Below are positions 545-55,766 of a stretch of 62,839 bases of DNA, one piece after another. A model generated the notes under the pieces. That model did not search any database and was not told where the DNA came from. It was given only the letters and a program-made list of their open reading frames with translations. Both the position numbers and the translations under genes were made by a program. This stretch comes from a virus: IMG/VR virus record IMGVR_UViG_3300047548_001519, positions 1-62,839 of that record; one strand, given 5' to 3'. Positions within the stretch are counted from its first letter, which is position 1. Every line of letters starts with the position of its first letter.

Positions 545-1211
545 TATTTTGTCTCCTCCGTTGAGCCTCTTTACTTCTAGTATTCACGTAATCCCAATCA
601 CTTATTGACGAATAAATTTCTTTTTGTTTATGATACTGTTCTGTTGTTATTTGTATAGCCTTTCCTTGTTTATCTATACATGTAATCTTACCAGGAGTTC
701 CTTTGTAGTTTTCTTTACTAGATTTCGGTCTTTTAAGCAACTTTCTTGTGTGTTCTGTAAACGATTTTGCTTTATAGTTAGGGTTTCTATCACCTTTTCT
801 CATCTCACTCCAAAGATGTTTTTGCTCATCAGAATGTTTTTTACCAAAAAAGGGATTGAGACTTCCTGTCTTACCATACATCCCATTAAGAGGGCCACTA
901 GCCCCTTTTCTATACACTCCTTTTGGAGCACCATCCATCCCATTTTCTTCTTGTAAATTGAGCCATTTAGTAGAATCAACTATATCAAAGAATGATGAAA
1001 AGAACAACGCAAATTCTTGCAACAATTCCACATCATAAAAAGGCTCCGACACCCACAAAGTTTTTACATGGGATGGGCCGTGCTTTTTGATGTGTCTCAA
1101 CCAATGAGTGCCAGACCCTTTATACTGATGTATATTTTCTTTAGTCGTTCTACCAAAATAATACTTGTCGGTTAGTTCGTGACGCTTGATATAAAGATAT
1201 GTTGGGGTCAT
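534..1211 (-). CDS. GIY-YIG homing endonuclease (Seg-like)
   Basis: 225 aa. The N-terminus carries a GIY-YIG-like core (TYLYIKRHELTDKYYFGRT), and the middle has NUMOD3-like repeats (GPLNGMYGKTGSLNPFFGKKHS) that bind DNA in T4 Seg enzymes. Its ATG overlaps the phoH stop codon as ATGA, with a GGAG 8 nt upstream, so it is translationally coupled to phoH. It probably makes site-specific double-strand cuts that spread its own gene. It sits next to another mobile element, the phoH intein. Confidence 0.8.
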   Translation of the reverse strand: MTPTYLYIKRHELTDKYYFGRTTKENIHQYKGSGTHWLRHIKKHGPSHVKTLWVSEPFYDVELLQEFALFFSSFFDIVDSTKWLNLQEENGMDGAPKGVYRKGASGPLNGMYGKTGSLNPFFGKKHSDEQKHLWSEMRKGDRNPNYKAKSFTEHTRKLLKRPKSSKENYKGTPGKITCIDKQGKAIQITTEQYHKQKEIYSSISDWDYVNTRSKEAQRRRQNNGI

Positions 1212-3025
1212 AAGTCGACTCCAACTTTATTACATGCGATAATCCAATCACGAACTAAACTACTTCTTACGATATCATCTACAACAAATTCTATGTGTGT
1301 AAATGAAGGCATTGTTTTAGCAATCTCGAGAAATTGCTTTACCCCACTTACATCGTTTCTCGATTTATTTAAATCAGTTTGTCTATAATCACCACACCAG
1401 ATAATTTTGGAACGATATCCCACTCGTGTCATCACTGTTGAAATTTCACTCCAATTCATGTTCTGGCATTCATCCACGATAATGATTGCATCATCGAACG
1501 ATTGCCCTCGAATAAACGATGTAGAGATGAACTCAATATATCCTTGCTCTTCTAGTCTTTGGTATGCGTCTGGTCTTCCGAATAGAGTGTGACAGATTTG
1601 TTGATAAGGTTGACGATAGATTTGAGTCTTCTCTTCGAGGTCACCGGGCAGATGACCGACTTCCCTTGACGGGACTGCAGAACGGACAATAATAATCTTA
1701 TCGAATGGATTTGATTTGTCGAGTACTTCTTCGATTGCCTTGTAGAGAGCAACGAAGGTATTGTGTGTGACAATGTAGTCATCTGTTACATAGAGATGGT
1801 CCTCACTATCGATCATAATACACTGAGCTTCTTCCTCCCCAACCACTTCAATAGAGCTAACTCGTCTACGCAATTCAACCCGCCCGTGTGCAAATTGTTC
1901 TGGTAATCTGTCCTGCTTACGAGGAAGGGAAAATAGCAGTTTGGGTGTCGGATGTGCAATGTGTAGGGTATAAGCCCTCTTGCCTGCTTTTGTTTCTCCA
2001 AGGTATGAATAGTGTGGAACTCGGTGTGTGATGGTACATGTTGCGCCTACAGACCAAAGGAGCTGTTGTACATCCAAGGCTAGTTGATGACTTACCGTTG
2101 TGTATGATACAGTACCTCGTTTACCCACAGTACCATCAGTATCTAACAACCCCCTAATCAACTCAAGCCGTTGTTGCAAACTACACTGATTATAAGAGCT
2201 GGGGATGAACTTTTCTGCTGATGTACAGCCATATAATCCTAGCTCACTTAACATCTGTTTGTAAAAGTTAGTAAAGTGACCTTTTGTGTTGATGTGGGTT
2301 TGATTCTTTTGTATAATTGCAAACTCTATGTCTCCACGCTGTGACAGCGTATACCCTTCATCCAACTCACTTGTTACTTTTTCTATGATATGGCTGTCAG
2401 CAGATGTTAGGGAAATATGATGTGTCATCCCTCCATCTCCAAGCAGTGCTCCTAACACGTATGGGGTGATAGGTAAGGCACAGTCAATACCAGGAGTGGG
2501 TGTAATCATGTCGACTGAAACAGATCTACCAGAGTCAATCACACTTAGTATATCTAATGTATTCACCACATGGTACTGTGCTTTTCGACCGTTATTATCT
2601 GGATACCAAACACCCCAGAGATGCTCTGCACAAGCTCTCGTTGAGCTGCCATCGTGGAAGGTAATCTGGAATATTTCCTTCTTACCCTGCGGAAATATTC
2701 CCGTAATAGGAGCCAGGTCACCTTTAGGTGTTACAACAAGATCTCCAACATTGAGGTCTCCCATCAGCTTCCAACTTGATGGTGTTAGAATTTTTGCATC
2801 TAGGGGTTGGGCTTTACCAGTTCCTGCCACACCGTGGAGAGCTATAAAGTAGTCACCTTGTTTGTATGCATCAAAGAATTTTTTCTGGTTGTCGGTTAGG
2901 GGATCAAAAGTTTTTAAATCATCAATTCTAAGTTTTAGATGGTTGTTTGGTTTTGGTTTGTCAAATTTCTCTTCCGGTTGTACTAGCTCAGTCACGTTAT
3001 CATGCTTCTGTTGTCGTCTGGCCAT
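1208..3025 (-). CDS. phoH: PhoH-like ATPase with an in-frame intein
   Basis: 605 aa, of which about 254 are PhoH extein. PhoH is a RecA-fold P-loop ATPase common in T4-like and marine phages; its role there is unsettled (phosphate starvation or RNA metabolism). Walker A is GVAGTGK/TF, split by the intein after K71. Walker B is IIIVDECQNM, and the C-terminal part IIWCGDYRQTDLN is typical of the family. Splicing would rebuild GVAGTGKTF exactly. It is followed by a coupled homing endonuclease. Confidence 0.92.
   Translation of the reverse strand: MARRQQKHDNVTELVQPEEKFDKPKPNNHLKLRIDDLKTFDPLTDNQKKFFDAYKQGDYFIALHGVAGTGKAQPLDAKILTPSSWKLMGDLNVGDLVVTPKGDLAPITGIFPQGKKEIFQITFHDGSSTRACAEHLWGVWYPDNNGRKAQYHVVNTLDILSVIDSGRSVSVDMITPTPGIDCALPITPYVLGALLGDGGMTHHISLTSADSHIIEKVTSELDEGYTLSQRGDIEFAIIQKNQTHINTKGHFTNFYKQMLSELGLYGCTSAEKFIPSSYNQCSLQQRLELIRGLLDTDGTVGKRGTVSYTTVSHQLALDVQQLLWSVGATCTITHRVPHYSYLGETKAGKRAYTLHIAHPTPKLLFSLPRKQDRLPEQFAHGRVELRRRVSSIEVVGEEEAQCIMIDSEDHLYVTDDYIVTHNTFVALYKAIEEVLDKSNPFDKIIIVRSAVPSREVGHLPGDLEEKTQIYRQPYQQICHTLFGRPDAYQRLEEQGYIEFISTSFIRGQSFDDAIIIVDECQNMNWSEISTVMTRVGYRSKIIWCGDYRQTDLNKSRNDVSGVKQFLEIAKTMPSFTHIEFVVDDIVRSSLVRDWIIACNKVGVDL
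1760..2812 (-). mobile_element. Class-3-type intein with LAGLIDADG endonuclease in PhoH Walker A
   Basis: The intein spans about residues 72-422 (351 aa). It begins with Ala (AQPLDAKILTP), not Cys or Ser, and ends IVTHN before extein Thr. Trp in EHLW (block B), Cys402 in block F (QCIMIDSEDHLYVTDD) and Thr420 in block G match the WCT triad of class 3 inteins, which splice through a branched block F Cys intermediate. Two dodecapeptide motifs, YVLGALLGDGGM and LIRGLLDTDGTV, mark a DOD homing endonuclease. Both look intact. Confidence 0.88.
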
Positions 3026-6265: not shown

Positions 6266-6421
6266 TCAGGTCTGCGGGGGAGTTTGTGGTGTTCGGGTTT
6301 GTAAAAACCGATAGAAATTCACGAAGTACGCAAACGCTTTGGGCTGATGAATAGGGTTTGGTACGGAACCAAATTCTTTGATCAAATTATTGTAGAGGTC
6401 GATTGCTTCTTTGTCAGTCAT
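6266..6421 (-). CDS. Small unknown protein coupled to ClpP
   Basis: 51 aa, MTDKEAIDLYNNLIKEFGSV at the start and a Pro/Thr-rich tail. Its ATG overlaps the clpP-like stop codon (ATGA), so it is probably translationally coupled. Function unknown; an adaptor or modulator for the neighbouring protease would be speculation. Confidence 0.6.
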   Translation of the reverse strand: MTDKEAIDLYNNLIKEFGSVPNPIHQPKAFAYFVNFYRFLQTRTPQTPPQT

Positions 6422-6987
6422 ATGATTGAATCTGCAATATTAAATTTTAGCGCTTCTTCAGCAGACATATAGGTATCAGAGGGCCGCAATAGTTGTGATT
6501 TGATCTTTGATCTAACCAGACCAGTCGCTTGTTGCAGGATGTCAATCATTCTACTATTGCATCGCTCACCCTCAGCCATAGACGCCTTCAAGTCATGGTG
6601 CTTCCCTTGCATCTCGTCAGAGTATTGGTGACACATGAAACTAGTGTGCGACATTGCGTACCTGTGACCTTTCTCACCTGAAGCAAATATCAACAAGGCA
6701 GCACTCATCACAGATCCAACACCAATCACGTGGATTGGATGGACACTATGTTTCATCACGTCAATTAAAGCAAACGAAGAGTACAGATCGCCACCTGTCG
6801 AATTGATGTAGAGAGTAAGTGGTCTTATGGAGGTTGCGTTGAAATTCTCATACAAAATCCACTTGATGCACTTTTCAATGTTCTCCTCATCAATCTCTCC
6901 AGAAAGAAAATGCGTACGATTCTCAAGTAGTGTTGAGTCTACTCGATCGCTAACATTGAATTCTGAAGCGGCAGGAGGTCGTTTCAT
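6418..6987 (-). CDS. clpP: ClpP-like serine protease
   Basis: 189 aa, close to bacterial ClpP in length. The catalytic triad is visible: Ser in GVGSVMSAALLIFASGEKGHR (about residue 96), His in FMCHQ (about 121), and Asp in RPSDTYMSAEEAL (about 170). ClpP forms a barrel that degrades proteins fed by Clp ATPases. No phage Clp ATPase is seen, so it may use a host one or work alone. It is not beside the capsid genes, so a prohead-protease role is unlikely. It overlaps genes on both sides by ATGA. Confidence 0.85.
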   Translation of the reverse strand: MKRPPAASEFNVSDRVDSTLLENRTHFLSGEIDEENIEKCIKWILYENFNATSIRPLTLYINSTGGDLYSSFALIDVMKHSVHPIHVIGVGSVMSAALLIFASGEKGHRYAMSHTSFMCHQYSDEMQGKHHDLKASMAEGERCNSRMIDILQQATGLVRSKIKSQLLRPSDTYMSAEEALKFNIADSII

Positions 6988-9353: not shown

Positions 9354-9797
9354 TTAAAAGCGATATTTGACGCCACCAGTCAACACGTTAGCGTTGTTCT
9401 GGCTATTCTGGGCGAATTGATATGCATAATCTGCGGTGAGAGAAACATTCTTGCTGACAGGAATTTCTACGCCAATGCCAACAAGACCTGCTGAACCTTC
9501 ATTCCTCGACTGATTCAAATAAGCATAACCAACTTTACCCGATATTACAAAAGATTTGCTTTGGTAGACATCATATGAACCAACCAAAGTCCAACGGTTC
9601 TGGTCACCTTGGCTAAGCCATGCCTGAGCATAACCAGCTGTTAGACCCACTTTACCCCACTTCTCTCCAACAGTCACACCAGCAAGACCCCCATTATTGG
9701 ATCCAGTAGCGCCACCACCAACTACGCCAACTTCCAAAGCGGATGCTGTAGTTGCTGCTGCGGTAAGTGCGACTGCAATTGCCATTTTACGAATCAT
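9354..9797 (-). CDS. Outer-membrane beta-barrel protein
   Basis: 147 aa. A signal peptide ends at TASA-LE. Amphipathic strands follow, ending in the porin-type C-terminal aromatic signature VLTGGVKYRF. The size fits an eight-stranded barrel. Such proteins could alter the infected cell surface, for example superinfection exclusion (inference). It lies 29 nt downstream of the tmRNA coding piece, with its own TAGGAGAT site. Confidence 0.7.
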   Translation of the reverse strand: MIRKMAIAVALTAAATTASALEVGVVGGGATGSNNGGLAGVTVGEKWGKVGLTAGYAQAWLSQGDQNRWTLVGSYDVYQSKSFVISGKVGYAYLNQSRNEGSAGLVGIGVEIPVSKNVSLTADYAYQFAQNSQNNANVLTGGVKYRF

Positions 9798-9825
9798 AGT
9801 ATCTCCTATAGTTAATAAAGTACTA

Positions 9826-9993
9826 GCTGATTGGGTAATAAGGTTCAGCTAGCAAAACCCCAGCTCAGCATGCACTAGGCAGCTAAAGCAAATCGCTCAT
9901 CATTGGCGTTTATAGTTTTTGCTTGATTTACGGTCATCGCCTACCGGATCGTCCATATCTCTACTTGTTACCCTGTCGAATCTAGTCATCCCC
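9826..9993 (-). ncRNA. ssrA: tmRNA coding piece of a circularly permuted ssrA gene
   Basis: The piece starts GGGGATGACTAGATTCGACA, matching the canonical tmRNA 5' end and D-loop. The tag frame is GCC AAT GAT GAG CGA TTT GCT TTA GCT GCC TAG, giving ANDERFALAA and a stop at about 9877-9909. The 5' strand GGGGATG pairs with CATCTCC of the upstream acceptor piece (one G-U). Helix P2 forms between CAGGGTA (9969-9975) and TATCCTG (10157-10163). The 3' end is not fixed; a CTAGCTGA/TCAGCTAG hairpin lies at about 9826-9855. tmRNA rescues stalled ribosomes and tags the proteins for proteolysis. Confidence 0.9.
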
Positions 9994-9994
9994 A

Positions 9995-10114
9995 TCAAAA
10001 TAAACCTTTTACTACTCCAAATGTAATGGCAAATAGTGGGATCAATATAATTGATGCGGCTAGCAACAATACAAACACCCAAACACATCTAAAGAATAAT
10101 TTTATATATTTCAT
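9995..10114 (-). CDS. Membrane miniprotein inside the tmRNA intervening segment
   Basis: 39 aa, MKYIKLFFRCVWVFVLLLAA then SIILIPLFAITFGVVKGLF: one long hydrophobic helix with basic ends. The ORF fills almost all of the 132-nt segment between the mature acceptor end (10126) and the coding-piece 5' end (9993). There is no clear Shine-Dalgarno, so translation is uncertain. An unselected AT-rich spacer could also encode such a frame. Confidence 0.4.
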   Translation of the reverse strand: MKYIKLFFRCVWVFVLLLAASIILIPLFAITFGVVKGLF

Positions 10115-10125
10115 AAAGTCTATTT

Positions 10126-10192
10126 TGGTGGAGATGGTGGGATTCGCACCCACGTCCAGGATACCTTTGGATCAACTTCGTACGATCATAAT
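10126..10192 (-). ncRNA. ssrA: tmRNA acceptor piece (upstream half of permuted ssrA)
   Basis: It lies upstream of the coding piece on the minus strand. It contains a T-arm (GTGGG-TGCGAAT-CCCAC) and ends CATCTCC-A-CCA with an encoded CCA. The acceptor strand pairs fully with GGGGATG of the coding piece, and TATCCTG forms P2. The 5' end is taken just after the stop codon of the upstream gene. This order (3' part before 5' part) is the hallmark of two-piece tmRNAs. Confidence 0.88.
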
Positions 10193-10477
10193 CTATGACT
10201 GCTTTGGTGTACCACCCATACTGATGACGCACATAATTCCTTTTACTATTTCTGTCTTTGTTACTGTATACGACTTTGTCTCTAAGTTTTGCCAAAGAGA
10301 TACGACTATTGTAGCACTTTCAACAGCAGACCACAACTTCATTTCACCGTAGGATTCTATCCATTTGGTCACATCTTCTGTTGAAGAGCAGATAGCGCTC
10401 ATCTTAACATGCTGTACAGAGGGCTGGGCAAAAGCCATCAATGGAACAAATAAAAGCCCTAGAAAGTATTTGCGCAT
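10193..10477 (-). CDS. Small secreted protein
   Basis: 94 aa with a Sec signal peptide (MRKYFLGLLFVPLMAFA-QP) and two Cys after it (AICSS, GIMCV). A late-type TATAAATA box precedes it, so gene and tmRNA may share a late transcript. Function unknown. Confidence 0.65.
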   Translation of the reverse strand: MRKYFLGLLFVPLMAFAQPSVQHVKMSAICSSTEDVTKWIESYGEMKLWSAVESATIVVSLWQNLETKSYTVTKTEIVKGIMCVISMGGTPKQS

Positions 10478-10501: not shown

Positions 10502-10509
10502 TATTTATA
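10502..10509 (-). promoter_or_regulatory. T4-type late promoter (TATAAATA)
   Basis: TTATAAATAAAAATACTC on the minus strand, between tRNA-Leu and the secreted-protein gene. It is the nearest promoter-like signal upstream of the permuted tmRNA. Confidence 0.6.
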
Positions 10510-10616: not shown

Positions 10617-12140
10617 TTATATAATAATGTTGGCAAAATATCCACTTAAATTAATGGTTATTTGGGGTTCTTCGGGTTCCACTCCCTCTTCTTCAAGTTC
10701 TACTTTGTACCCCCAAAGATACTCAAGATAGTGGATGACTTCCAATTTCTTGTCCGTTAATTTTTCATCATTTCTTGGGGTGTATCTCAACACTAATCTT
10801 CTTGTGGTCTTGAGGTTTGCATTCACAACTTGAATATCTGGAACAAACCTTGAGAGACTATACTGTGCACTTAGTGTGCGTCTAATCGAATCATACCCTC
10901 TTTTATCTTGTATGCCAGATATTGTGACATAATCATCATGCTCATTGTTGGTAATTTCAAACAACTTCCATTTGCGTATGATTGCTGGACTTAGGAATTG
11001 CGCAACAAAGCTTTCATCTCGATAATTCTTTACTGCATCTAAGACTGTTGGTAACCAAGGCTGCCCTGCCATATGTGGGAAGTACTCTTCATCTTCCTTT
11101 GTCGGATTCTCGCATATTCTTTTGATGTCTGTAAACATATCAAACCCAAGAGCGTATGGATTGAATCCAGAGTAGTACTTGTGATCGTGAGGTAGTTGTC
11201 TCAGCACGGAACTGTGGCTATGAATGAACTCCATATATTGACCATCTGATAACTGACCCTTCTCCCATAGCCTATTCATAATATAGTAGTGAGTAAAGGA
11301 AGCAAACCCTTCATTCATCAGCTTAGTTTGATACTGAGGGTAGAAATATTGCGAGAGTTTACGAACAATCCTTACAATCTCTCTTTGCCATGACTCTAAA
11401 ACAGGACTATTCTTTTCGATGAAGTAGAGAATGTTTTCTTGAGGTTCTTTAGGGAAGACGTCATCGTCTTCATCATCTACCTCAATCTTACCGGAAGGCG
11501 GCAAGGTTCTCCAAAGGTCGTTAGCCATCTTTTGGACGTACTCTTCACGCTCCTTCTGCATCTCCTGTTCTTTTTTCTTACTCAATTTTGTTGGTCGTTT
11601 ATAACGATCCACACCATACATCATCAACGCGTGGCAAGCGTCTAACGTAAGCTCAACTTCCTGTACACCGTATGACTCTTCACACTTTGCAATATAGTTT
11701 TTAGCAAACTGCAGGTAGTCAACAATTGATTCTGCATCCGTCCATTGACGAAACAAATAGTTGTTCTTAAAGAAGTGATTGTGGCCATAGGCTGCATGAG
11801 CAATCACAAGAGCCTGCATCGTCATAGAATTCTCTTCCATGAGATATGAAATGCAAGGTGAACTGTTAATTACAATCTCATATGCAAGGCCAGAATGTCC
11901 TTTCCTGTAGCCGTACATATCCCTCAAGAAATGCTTTCCGAAACTCCAATGGGTGTACATTAAAGGAAGACCGTGACTTGAGTATGCGTCAAGCATCTGA
12001 TCACTACCAATAATCTCAATCTGATTAGGATACACATCAAGATGCAATTCTTCAAGTGCAATCTCGCGAATTGCATCTTCAGCAATCCTCAACCGATCGA
12101 ACGTCCAATCGTTTGTGTCAAATAACAGCTTTGAGATCAT
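10617..12140 (-). CDS. SpoVR/YcgB-family protein
   Basis: 507 aa, the usual length of YcgB/SpoVR. Family-typical stretches include the HWSFGKHFLRDMYGYRKGHS region, YEIVINSSPCISYLMEENS, FASFTHYYIMNRLWEKGQLS and the GFNPYALGFDMFTDIKR region. It is the third gene of the PrkA-YeaH-SpoVR set, which is co-regulated in bacteria under nitrogen, stationary-phase or sporulation stress. The biochemical role is unknown. It overlaps the YeaH stop codon by 4 nt. Confidence 0.9.
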   Translation of the reverse strand: MISKLLFDTNDWTFDRLRIAEDAIREIALEELHLDVYPNQIEIIGSDQMLDAYSSHGLPLMYTHWSFGKHFLRDMYGYRKGHSGLAYEIVINSSPCISYLMEENSMTMQALVIAHAAYGHNHFFKNNYLFRQWTDAESIVDYLQFAKNYIAKCEESYGVQEVELTLDACHALMMYGVDRYKRPTKLSKKKEQEMQKEREEYVQKMANDLWRTLPPSGKIEVDDEDDDVFPKEPQENILYFIEKNSPVLESWQREIVRIVRKLSQYFYPQYQTKLMNEGFASFTHYYIMNRLWEKGQLSDGQYMEFIHSHSSVLRQLPHDHKYYSGFNPYALGFDMFTDIKRICENPTKEDEEYFPHMAGQPWLPTVLDAVKNYRDESFVAQFLSPAIIRKWKLFEITNNEHDDYVTISGIQDKRGYDSIRRTLSAQYSLSRFVPDIQVVNANLKTTRRLVLRYTPRNDEKLTDKKLEVIHYLEYLWGYKVELEEEGVEPEEPQITINLSGYFANIII

Positions 12141-13408
12141 ACGGATTCCTTTGCAAATAAGGATTTAAACACTTTCCAGATATCTTCTGTATAAAACACT
12201 GTCCTCATAGCAAGGTGTTTAAATTCGTCAGCAACAGGACTATATGACTCCCAAAGGTCTGTATTTGTGTCTGAACCAAGTTGGTACACTCTACCAATTT
12301 CAATGTAAGCGAAGTATTGTGTCAAAGGCATCAACTCTGTGATTGTTTTTGTCGCTTCCTCCGAATCATCACTATAGTTATCACCATCAGATGACTGAGC
12401 AATGTAGATGTTCCAGTCGTTAGATGGATATCTACGCTCGATGATCTCTTTTGTTAGCTTAAGAGCAGATGAAACAATTGTTCCACCAGATCGTTGACCG
12501 TAGAAGAATTCTTCCTCATCTACCTCATCAGCTTCTTCGTGGTGACGAATGAATACAATATCTACTTTCTCATACTTACGATGAAGGAACATATGTAATA
12601 GAAAAAAGAATCTTTTTGCAAGATCTTTCTCTCTTTGTCCCATCGAGGCTGATACATCCATCAAACAAAACATCACAGCTTTGGTTGTTGGTTTAGGCAC
12701 TTGTGTGAAGTTGCGATAGCGAACATCAAAAGGATCTAGCCAAGGAATTGCTACTTGTTTTCTTTTCAGTTCATCCAGTTCAATTTTTAGCTTTTGTACA
12801 AGCTCAGCATCCTTATCGATGATTGCCTGATCAATCTTCTTTTCAAGCTCCTCGATTTCTTCATTCTTTGGTCTATGAAGTCCAGTACGCCTACCCATAC
12901 TATTTTTCAACGATCTAACAACATCCAGTTGAGATGGGTTGCCCGTGTTAGTATATCCCGCTCGTTTCATTTGCGTTTTGGTAACATCTTTAATTTGCTT
13001 TTTGACGAGGTCAGGAAGCTCAAGATCTTCGAAAATGAAATCGATGAACTCATCCTTACTAAGGATGAACTCAAACTCATCCTCGGCATCTACGCCAGTA
13101 CCGCCTTTTGTCCCTCGTCTCCCTCCCCCTTGAGGAGGTTTATCCTCAGTATCACCTTCGATGTATTCCTTATTGCCTGGCATGACATATTTCTTATCAC
13201 CAGTCTTTGGATCTACTTGAAACTGAGGTTCTCCGATACCTTTCACCCGAACACGTATTTTATTGTTCTGAATGTCAGCAATATTACCACCATCAATAGC
13301 CTTCTTAACAACTCTCTTAATCTGCTCTTTACTACGTTCAATAAAGCGCTGACGGTTCTTGATAGTTTTATCTCGTGGATTGAGACGTCGATCGATGATC
13401 GTTGACAT
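12137..13408 (-). CDS. YeaH/YhbH-family (DUF444) protein with VWA domain
   Basis: 423 aa, like bacterial YeaH. The N-terminus has the family motif RFIERSKEQIKRVVKKAI. The centre has a Gly-rich segment, and the C-terminal VWA domain has a MIDAS motif in VMFCLMDVSASMGQREKDLA. It probably bridges PrkA kinase and SpoVR (inference from conserved operon order). Confidence 0.9.
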   Translation of the reverse strand: MSTIIDRRLNPRDKTIKNRQRFIERSKEQIKRVVKKAIDGGNIADIQNNKIRVRVKGIGEPQFQVDPKTGDKKYVMPGNKEYIEGDTEDKPPQGGGRRGTKGGTGVDAEDEFEFILSKDEFIDFIFEDLELPDLVKKQIKDVTKTQMKRAGYTNTGNPSQLDVVRSLKNSMGRRTGLHRPKNEEIEELEKKIDQAIIDKDAELVQKLKIELDELKRKQVAIPWLDPFDVRYRNFTQVPKPTTKAVMFCLMDVSASMGQREKDLAKRFFFLLHMFLHRKYEKVDIVFIRHHEEADEVDEEEFFYGQRSGGTIVSSALKLTKEIIERRYPSNDWNIYIAQSSDGDNYSDDSEEATKTITELMPLTQYFAYIEIGRVYQLGSDTNTDLWESYSPVADEFKHLAMRTVFYTEDIWKVFKSLFAKESV

Positions 13409-13416
13409 GATTACAC

Positions 13417-15372
13417 CTACGCTGATTTACGTACACGCATATACCACTCAACGAGACGGCGAATCTGTCTCGGTGTATATCCACGCTGCTCCATCCGCGA
13501 AATAAAGTCATTGTGTTTCTTTTCCAGGTCTTTATCTTTCTTGCTATCAAAAGAGATAACAGGCAACAAGTCCTCTACCTGGCTAAACATCTTCTTCTCG
13601 ATTACATCTCGAAGAATACTGTAGCTGGTCCATGTTGGGTTGTTACCATTGTTCTCAGGCTTAGCGCGCGCACGCAAACAGAAGTTTACGATCTCATTAC
13701 GGAAGTCTTTTGGATTAGCAATTCCAGCTGGCTTTTCAATCTTCTCAAGCTCATCATTCAACAAAGAACGATCCATCAAGAGACCAGTGTCTGGATCCTT
13801 AAACTCAACATCCTGAATCCAGGCATCAGCGTACTCAACGTAGCGATCAAACAAATTCTGGCCATATTCGGAATACGATTCCAAGTATGCTTTCTGAACT
13901 TCATTACCCAAGAACTCAGCATATCGAGTTGCAAGTTCACCCTTGATGAGAGATAACAGCTCCTGCTCTTTCTCACCACCAAACTGTTCACGCTTAATTG
14001 CATTCTCGAGAACGTACATCAGATGAACTGGATCAGCAGCAATCTCTTCTGGAGTGAAGTTAAATGTCTGTGAAAGAATCTTATATGCAAATCGAGTAGA
14101 GATTCCTTCCATTCCTTCATCAACACCAGCTACATCACGATACTCTTGAATTGACTTAGCTTTTGGATCAGACTCTTTGATGTTCTCGCCGTTGTACACT
14201 CGCATCTTGCTATACAACGTACTATTTTCATGATCTTTCAAACGAGTGAGGACACTAAATTGAGCAAGCATCTCGAGCGTCTGAGGTGCACAAGGAGCTT
14301 CTGTGAGACCAGAGCTCTTGATCATTTTTTGATAGATTTTCTGCTCTTCATCAACACGCAAACAATATGGAACCTTGATGACGCAAATACGATCTAGGAA
14401 TGCTTCGTTGTTCTTGTTGTTGCGGAATGTCTGCCACTCGCTCTCATTCGAGTGCGCCAACACGATACCTTGGAAGGGTATTGCAGAAATAGCTTCTGTT
14501 CCTGTGTAGTTGCCCTCTTGGGTAGCGGTGAGTAGAGGATGAAGAACCTTAATAGGTGCTTTAAACATTTCAACAAATTCAAGCAGACCTTGGTTAGCAC
14601 GGCAGAGTCCTCCAGAATAGCTGTATGCATCTGTATCGTTTTGGCTAAACTTTTCTAGTTTGCGAATGTCTACTTTTCCAACAAGAGTGGAAATGTCTTG
14701 ATTATTCTCATCGCCTGGTTCTGTTTTCATCACACCAATCTGTTCCAGCTTACTTGGTTGCAGACGAACAACGCGAAACTGATCGATGTCACCACCTGAT
14801 TGCTTCAATCGCTTTAGAGCCCATGGACTCATAATCGTATTCAAGTAACGACGATCGATGTGATACTTCTTTTCCAACACCTCAACATACTCAGGCGAAG
14901 AAAACAAGCCAAGAGGACTTTCAAACACTGGACTTATCTCAATAGTACCATCAGCGTGCTGGAATGCTAATGCGTAAATGGGATTTACTTCCATTAATTC
15001 TTTCAACTTCTCAGCCAGAGAGCTTTTGCCTCCTCCAACTGGTCCAAGAAGATACAGAATTTGCTTACGCTCTTCAAGCCCTTGAGCAGCATGTCGGAAG
15101 TAACCAACAATGCGCTCGATGGCATCTTCCATTCCGTAAAATTCTTTGAATGCAGGATAGACGCGAAGCGTTCTGTTTGAAAAGATCCTGCTTAGACGAG
15201 CATCTTTGCTGGTGTCAACCAATTCCGGTTCACCAATTGCAGCAACCATGCGCTCTGCTGCAGAAGCGTACATCATCTTATCTTTTTTACACAAATCAAG
15301 ATACTCATCAACAGTCATTGACTTGCTGATGGTTTTCTCGAAGTTCTTTTTAAACAAATTGGAAATCGACAT
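13417..15372 (-). CDS. prkA: PrkA/YeaG-family serine protein kinase
   Basis: 651 aa, matching bacterial PrkA (about 640). The N-terminal AAA+ domain has Walker A GPVGGGKSSLAEKL (about 110-123); the middle keeps PrkA blocks such as the region around NQGLLEFVEMFKAP and ILAHSNE-like VLAHSNESEW. The C-terminal part is the kinase-like domain. PrkA responds to starvation in bacteria. With YeaH and SpoVR it forms a complete stress cassette, so the phage may hold the host in a chosen physiological state (inference). Confidence 0.92.
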   Translation of the reverse strand: MSISNLFKKNFEKTISKSMTVDEYLDLCKKDKMMYASAAERMVAAIGEPELVDTSKDARLSRIFSNRTLRVYPAFKEFYGMEDAIERIVGYFRHAAQGLEERKQILYLLGPVGGGKSSLAEKLKELMEVNPIYALAFQHADGTIEISPVFESPLGLFSSPEYVEVLEKKYHIDRRYLNTIMSPWALKRLKQSGGDIDQFRVVRLQPSKLEQIGVMKTEPGDENNQDISTLVGKVDIRKLEKFSQNDTDAYSYSGGLCRANQGLLEFVEMFKAPIKVLHPLLTATQEGNYTGTEAISAIPFQGIVLAHSNESEWQTFRNNKNNEAFLDRICVIKVPYCLRVDEEQKIYQKMIKSSGLTEAPCAPQTLEMLAQFSVLTRLKDHENSTLYSKMRVYNGENIKESDPKAKSIQEYRDVAGVDEGMEGISTRFAYKILSQTFNFTPEEIAADPVHLMYVLENAIKREQFGGEKEQELLSLIKGELATRYAEFLGNEVQKAYLESYSEYGQNLFDRYVEYADAWIQDVEFKDPDTGLLMDRSLLNDELEKIEKPAGIANPKDFRNEIVNFCLRARAKPENNGNNPTWTSYSILRDVIEKKMFSQVEDLLPVISFDSKKDKDLEKKHNDFISRMEQRGYTPRQIRRLVEWYMRVRKSA

Positions 15373-55229: not shown

Positions 55230-55766
55230 TTACAGTTTCTTAGAACGAGCTTTTTTAATTTGCTCGTGATCTTCCTCTGTAAGAAGTTGAGCATTGCCTT
55301 TTGAGAATACTGTAACTGTTGAAGGTTCATCAGCTACTTCAATCTTCTTAGGCTTCTTATGCTCAGGGATGATACGTTCAAGAGCGATCTGCAACATGCC
55401 GTTCATAAGACCAGCTCCCTTAATCTCAATTTGATCATTGAGTGCAAAGGTGCGAGTGAAGTTACGAGCAGCGATTCCGCGGAACAGATAATCTGTAGCA
55501 GGATCTTCTTTTGCATTGCCTCGAACAACTAGTTTGTCATCAACAAACTCAACTTCAATCTCTGACCTGCTAAAGCCAGCAACAGCCATTTCGATGACGT
55601 ACTTGTTGTCATCAACTTTACGGATGTTGTATGGAGGATAGTTGGGAATGTTTTTTGTGACCTCATCATGTAGTTTTGCCATTCGATTGATTTGTTCGTC
55701 AAAACCAACGAAGTACTTATCAAACAATTGCATATCACGACCAAAGACATCTTTAATGTATGTCAT
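55230..55766 (-). CDS. Hsp20 small heat-shock protein
   Basis: 178 aa. Alpha-crystallin domain with YVIEMAVAGFSRSEIEVEFV, LVVRGNAKEDPATDYLFRGI and GLMNGMLQIALERIIPE (the GxL motif). Widespread in cyanomyoviruses and T4-likes. The 200-nt upstream region is structured (55790-55965). Confidence 0.9.
   Translation of the reverse strand: MTYIKDVFGRDMQLFDKYFVGFDEQINRMAKLHDEVTKNIPNYPPYNIRKVDDNKYVIEMAVAGFSRSEIEVEFVDDKLVVRGNAKEDPATDYLFRGIAARNFTRTFALNDQIEIKGAGLMNGMLQIALERIIPEHKKPKKIEVADEPSTVTVFSKGNAQLLTEEDHEQIKKARSKKL

Follow-up and report, generated by a model that had tools for sequence, protein, structure and literature searches.

The spacer between the two pieces of a permuted tmRNA gene (here called the IVS) is generally regarded as discarded. 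The locus described here raises the question of whether this segment can itself be a gene in phages. The DNA that we analysed, called the window throughout, is a 62.8-kb IMG/VR record (IMGVR_UViG_3300047548_001519, 62,839 nucleotides). It hosts a permuted tmRNA gene in which a reading frame fills nearly all of the segment between the two pieces, a frame that had gone unnoticed in an earlier, sequence-only reading of the same DNA. We propose that a T4-like phage here carries a permuted tmRNA gene, the precursor RNA of which probably also serves as the mRNA for a small protein nested in the IVS. We give this reading a probability of roughly 0.8.

The permuted tmRNA gene and its carrier phage

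The minus strand of the window contains a permuted tmRNA gene at approximately 10187-9816, as found with Infernal and the Rfam models and with ARAGORN. The RF04321 (tmRNA_permuted) model matches 10187-9875 with 136 bits (E=1.6e-26, cut-off 47) and the RF01850 (beta_tmRNA) model matches 10232-9816 with 114.5 bits (E=4e-34, cut-off 84); ARAGORN, which is independent of Rfam, places a permuted tmRNA with the tag ANDERFALAA at 10218-9784. The assignment is close to certain. The sequence-only reading had proposed, at 9826-10192, a two-piece phage tmRNA with this tag and a stop, and had named the Rfam permuted models as the check. That check, now run with Infernal, and the ARAGORN call both bear the proposal out, and the span is essentially correct when compared with the limits from Rfam and ARAGORN. 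The features of the locus are given below, from upstream to downstream.

10502..10509, minus strand: T4-type late-promoter motif TATAAATA, between tRNA-Leu and the 94-aa ORF
10193..10477, minus strand: 94-aa ORF with a signal-peptide-like N-terminus, ending about 6 nt ahead of the acceptor piece
10126..10187, minus strand: tmRNA acceptor piece with T-arm, 3' acceptor strand and CCA (RF04321, RF01850, ARAGORN); the limit 10187 is the start of the RF04321 model, not a mapped 5' end
9994..10125, minus strand: IVS of 132 nt, expected to be missing from the mature tmRNA as in known permuted genes
10115..10125, minus strand: 5' strand of an 11-bp helix predicted to extend the acceptor stem (pairing probabilities 0.81-1.0; MFE fold)
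9995..10114, minus strand: ORF nested in the IVS, 39 aa, MKYIKLFFRCVWVFVLLLAASIILIPLFAITFGVVKGLF, with a TGA stop
9998..10008, minus strand: 3' strand of the same 11-bp helix, coinciding with the 3' end of the nested ORF (pairing probabilities)
9816..9993, minus strand: tmRNA coding piece with the GGGGATG acceptor strand, TTCGA, the 5' strand of P2 and the mRNA-like region; the 3' end is approximate (RF01850 to 9816, ARAGORN to 9784)
9875..9907, minus strand: tag frame for ANDERFALAA with a TAG stop (ARAGORN)
9354..9797, minus strand: outer-membrane beta-barrel-like ORF, directly 3' of the tmRNA

The order on one strand is thus acceptor piece, IVS and coding piece, and the two pieces are joined by pairing in the acceptor stem and in P2, as had been described from the sequence. 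In our own reading, the acceptor strands GGGGATG and CATCTCC form 7 base pairs, the single G-U being G3-U70, the alanine identity pair, and an encoded CCA (CATCTCC then ACCA) closes the acceptor piece. The coding piece begins with GGGGATGACTAGATTCGACA from 9993 on the minus strand, and the tag frame GCCAATGATGAGCGATTTGCTTTAGCTGCCTAG at 9907-9875 encodes an ALAA-type degron followed by TAG. No blastn match was found between the whole tmRNA and phage records, the 94-aa ORF has no family match, and no SmpB was recognised among the window ORFs scanned, which covered part of the small ORFs.

The window encodes homologues of T4 gp43, UvsX and the replicative helicase, of RNase H and the small subunit of RNR, and of RegA, gp62, gp44 and gp45. 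The carrier is therefore a T4-like phage, in agreement with the sequence-only reading, and its gp43 is nearest to those of cyanophages (~52% identity). The late-promoter motif occurs 10 times in the window, against 3.2 expected, with one copy (10509-10502) lying 5' of the 94-aa ORF. A homologue of the outer-membrane ORF with 67% identity is also found 3' of a permuted tmRNA in two other loci (L446 and L447).

Some other genes of the window deserve mention in their own right. A triad of PrkA, DUF444 (YeaH) and SpoVR (YcgB) lies at 10617-15372 on the minus strand. SpoVR relatives are found on at least 27 IMG/VR contigs, with DUF444 and PrkA adjoining in the same order in most of these, and among phage records the near-full-length matches are to huge uncultured phages. 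A PhoH protein of 605 aa (1208-3025, minus strand) has its PHROG PhoH matches at residues 423-600, and the long extra stretch before residue 423 seems to be an insert, possibly an intein. There is an Hsp20/alpha-crystallin chaperone gene at 55230-55766 (minus strand). Finally, a ClpP-like protease (6418-6987, minus strand; Pfam CLP_protease) has homologues in 16 of the fetched loci, and by eye the position of its catalytic serine looks unclear. We considered this protein as a partner of the tmRNA, but its best PHROG matches are head maturation proteases, and we therefore claim no such link.

Phage tmRNAs of this general kind have been published. According to PMC9004378, the Melnitz phage carries a two-piece tmRNA, and a survey from 2021 found 53 two-piece structures in 18,146 phage genomes; the earlier statement that none was well described in a T4-like phage therefore fails. 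A tmRNA database from 2025 holds 79 phage sequences, all forms together (PMC11915505). In IMG/VR, permuted tmRNAs with the tags ANDERFALAA or ANDESFALAA occur on at least dozens of contigs; the contigs with a standard one-piece tmRNA that came from the IMG/VR tag search were excluded from the permuted set, and the ARAGORN tags of some marine loci were doubtful and were left unused. As two-piece tmRNAs of phages are both published and common in IMG/VR, the tmRNA of the window belongs to a known kind and is not novel. Permuted tmRNAs are also present, unannotated in the records, in Xanthomonas phages X1 (L477) and Rb1 (L479), for which ARAGORN gives the tags VAANDADYSVARYA and ANDDNFRPALRLAA, respectively. 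In Cupriavidus pinatubonensis (G001, the genome that hosts locus L199), five copies of a permuted tmRNA score above the cut-off.

In a tree built from the acceptor and coding pieces, the window belongs to a group of 68 sequences that are all from phages (local support 83), and the nearest rows are other phage contigs with up to 80% identity. This position lends no support to a recent capture from a betaproteobacterium, which had been suggested on the basis of the tag type. The beta-proteobacterial type itself holds insofar as beta_tmRNA is the closest covariance model, and the phage tmRNA may have an older bacterial origin.

Reading frames in the spacers of phage tmRNA genes

The IVSs of phage tmRNA genes fall into two classes, one with an ORF and one without, the ends of the latter often pairing as a hairpin. 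In the ORF class a Shine-Dalgarno sequence typically follows the CCA within a few nucleotides, with the start codon some 10-16 nt past the CCA, although this sample was enriched by a search for Shine-Dalgarno sequence plus ATG, and the prevalence of the former partly reflects selection. The frame extends to the coding piece or near it, and 33 of 72 stop exactly at the TGA of the TGAT/GGG junction. Among the matches listed, 65 of the 72 non-redundant IVSs with a Shine-Dalgarno sequence and ATG have a frame that stays open until 15 nt or less before the coding piece, compared with 7.5+-2.4 expected; the search pattern did not demand an open frame. In a second sample, selected by tag and requiring neither a Shine-Dalgarno sequence nor an ATG, an ORF is found in 14 of the 26 IVSs that are 75 nt or longer among the matches listed (3.0+-1.6 expected).

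Computational signs of selection at the codon level accompany this recurrence. Across 20 families, each with at least two distinct members, the substitutions at codon positions 1, 2 and 3 number 147, 93 and 214 (p=3e-11), a test that pairs ORFs picked by protein similarity and is thereby biased towards coding. The median dN/dS is 0.05-0.3 in most multi-member families, with two short families at 0.55 and 0.79. Some of the products can be named: the ORF in the IVS of L415 encodes a thioredoxin (PF00085, E=4e-21) and that of L370 a PGDYG protein. The RF04321 model matches in all 14 of the 14 IVS-ORF loci tested, Melnitz included.

Several of these families are also found as free-standing genes near the tmRNA in other phages. 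For example, a 62-aa family that occupies the IVS in L266, L348, L291 and L423 corresponds to the annotated gene 85 of Melnitz, which lies just ahead of the tmRNA, 102 nt upstream, and free-standing homologues of other IVS families lie 70-563 nt from the IVS in L344, L399, L407 and L441. Along the tree there are about 25 changes between presence and absence of an ORF, at least 11 of them forced. From comparative sequence evidence, a class of putative IVS genes across phages is well supported.

Further variants of the arrangement were observed. The IVSs of L358, L372, L374, L380, L383, L396 and L422 (159-177 nt) start with a short ORF (..GDSDEES..). In those read by eye, this ORF overlaps another frame that extends to the coding piece, so that a single IVS has two nested ORFs. 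In L061, L073, L093, L094 and L096 the IVS ORF lacks a stop codon close to the junction and continues into the tmRNA coding piece. In L481 and L483 the IVS is coding-like and start-less, resembles by eye the IVS ORF of L379 and is possibly a decaying nested gene.

How does the window compare with this class? Its ATG (10114) lies 12 nt past the CCA, and a single nucleotide separates its TGA (9995) from the GGGG of the coding piece; the start-codon spacing and the open frame both fit the class. By inspection, the 39-aa peptide has one predicted membrane span. There is no clear Shine-Dalgarno sequence, the ATG being preceded by AAATAGACTTT. No homologue was found in phages by tblastn (E up to 1), nor in viral contigs among the matches listed by two DNA pattern scans.

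A reading that must be weighed seriously, and that we consider less probable than a gene, is that this is an ordinary phage permuted tmRNA and that the 39-codon frame is a chance opening in a T-rich spacer, which is untranslated. The missing Shine-Dalgarno sequence and homologues are in keeping with this, as are the nearest tmRNA relatives of the window (L111, L018 and L117), which have short IVSs of the hairpin class, and the syntenic loci L446 and L447, with short IVSs and no obvious ORF. Chance also easily yields hydrophobic T-rich peptides, and under loose criteria 2.6% of dinucleotide shuffles of the IVS contain such a frame (P=0.026). Against it, the start offset, the position of the TGA and the stem helix are as in the IVS-ORF class, and the probability drops to P=0.003 when placement is included (ATG at 0-based IVS offset 8-15 and a frame open to the TGA). 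Taken alone, the frame in the window makes a weak case; on balance we lean towards a real gene, mainly on account of its placement.

Fold, expression signals and a proposed mechanism

The two ends of an IVS pair with each other and thereby lengthen the acceptor stem, with a run of 7.4 for an end and its own partner compared with 4.1+-0.18 for swapped partners. In 68 ORF-class precursors the predicted unpaired probability of the Shine-Dalgarno sequence is 0.05, against 0.51 for 302 control Shine-Dalgarno sequences from the same loci, and its probability of pairing with the final 14 nt of the IVS is 0.95. The helix predicted in the window has 11 bp, with pairing probabilities of 0.81-1.0, and the start codon lies just past it and is mostly unpaired. 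Taken singly the fold of the window is unremarkable (z=-1.5), therefore the structural argument rests on the comparison.

Signals for expression flank many of these genes. Among the matches listed, TATAAATA lies upstream of 50 of 204 phage tmRNAs, where about 3.6 would be expected, at a near-fixed distance to the acceptor piece. A terminator-like hairpin follows 41/104 ORF-class genes and 6/90 others in a redundant set, compared with 4% of random stretches. Where a promoter and a terminator flank such a gene, the nested ORF may have no message other than the tmRNA precursor.

We infer translation, the cleavage sites and a folding switch as follows. By homology, host tRNA-processing enzymes would cut the transcript after the CCA and before the GGGG, and the two pieces would pair into a tmRNA that is alanylated and, together with host SmpB, frees stalled ribosomes, the ANDERFALAA tag being added to the stalled products for proteolysis. 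The IVS, in the window and in many other phages, would be a small gene. Since the Shine-Dalgarno sequence, in the members with better support, is complementary to the final codons of the ORF and is paired in the predicted precursor fold, loading probably takes place during RNA synthesis: the Shine-Dalgarno sequence and the start codon would emerge first, and ribosomes would load mainly on the nascent RNA. Once the end of the ORF has been transcribed, the helix would close, hiding the Shine-Dalgarno sequence and shutting off translation. The acceptor stem could then form and commit the RNA to tmRNA maturation. Translation and maturation would then be in competition, and each transcript would yield about one burst of protein. 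It is fairly likely, in our judgement, that the split tmRNA gene of many T4-like phages is such a dual RNA and protein gene, with an IVS slot that exchanges small proteins with its neighbours and a fold that, by pairing the Shine-Dalgarno sequence with the ORF end, couples one protein burst to each tmRNA.

The same fold could be read in another way, namely that translation of the IVS is regulatory: as with a leader peptide, ribosomes translating the IVS would slow or gate the maturation of the tmRNA, irrespective of the peptide sequence. The pairing of the Shine-Dalgarno sequence with the ORF end, the abutment of ORF ends on the coding piece and the recurrence of one architecture in many unrelated ORF families can all be accommodated in this way. 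That said, the low dN/dS in most families, the Pfam thioredoxin and the free-standing homologues indicate that the proteins matter, which makes a purely regulatory role improbable, although regulation and a protein role could both hold. Least likely is that the IVS ORFs are passing cargo, neighbourhood genes that recombined into the IVS and are decaying there unexpressed, as might be suggested by the families found both within and beside the IVS, the frequent gain and loss and, by inspection, the start-less remnants of an L379-type protein in L481 and L483, since codon selection and the conserved Shine-Dalgarno sequence and start spacing speak against it.

If the preferred reading of a dual gene is correct and phages routinely encode proteins in the IVS, one transcript would give rise to a rescue RNA and a protein via mutually exclusive folds, a layout for which we found no description in searches of open-access text. 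It would also add tens of families of small proteins, whose genes can escape gene callers since they overlap or sit within an RNA gene, as illustrated by the unannotated frame in the Melnitz IVS. The arrangement offers a testable system for the competition between translation and tRNA-type processing, and has a bearing on why lytic phages carry a tmRNA. To our knowledge, small-protein genes that recur in the IVS of phage tmRNAs are undescribed: our text searches returned no report of protein genes in a permuted-tmRNA IVS, and as these covered open-access papers, the claim of novelty is provisional.

Comparison with known systems

The closest described system is Melnitz (a Methylophilales phage of the Kyanoviridae, MZ577097). 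Like the window it is T4-like and has a permuted tmRNA with an RF04321 match, and in our own reading its 142-nt IVS hosts a frame with a Shine-Dalgarno sequence and ATG (MFKWLSKTRLVV...) that is unannotated in its record; the available excerpts of the Melnitz paper (PMC9004378) make no mention of an IVS reading frame. Unlike the window, which matches beta_tmRNA, Melnitz matches alpha_tmRNA, and a glutamine riboswitch is present at its 3' end.

The permuted tmRNAs of betaproteobacteria (RF01850; Cupriavidus, Rhodocyclaceae) resemble that of the window in their two-piece form, the ANDERFALAA tag and the model match. However, no IVS-ORF class was seen among the bacterial genes, and the IVS is mostly 2-47 nt long in the fetched bacterial permuted genes, compared with 132 nt in the window.

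Odd inserts have been recorded in the IVS, one a tRNA-Ala gene and one a repetitive element (PMC11915505). These share with the window the presence of additional sequence within the IVS, but they are single cases and non-protein, whereas the phage frames are recurrent and their start and stop placement is fixed.

Finally, tmRNA genes with group I introns carry homing endonuclease genes (PMC11915505), and are like the window in having a protein gene within a tmRNA gene. Those endonuclease genes, however, sit within a self-splicing intron of the tmRNA T-loop, whereas in the window there is no intron, and the segment that hosts the putative gene would be removed by tRNA-type processing.
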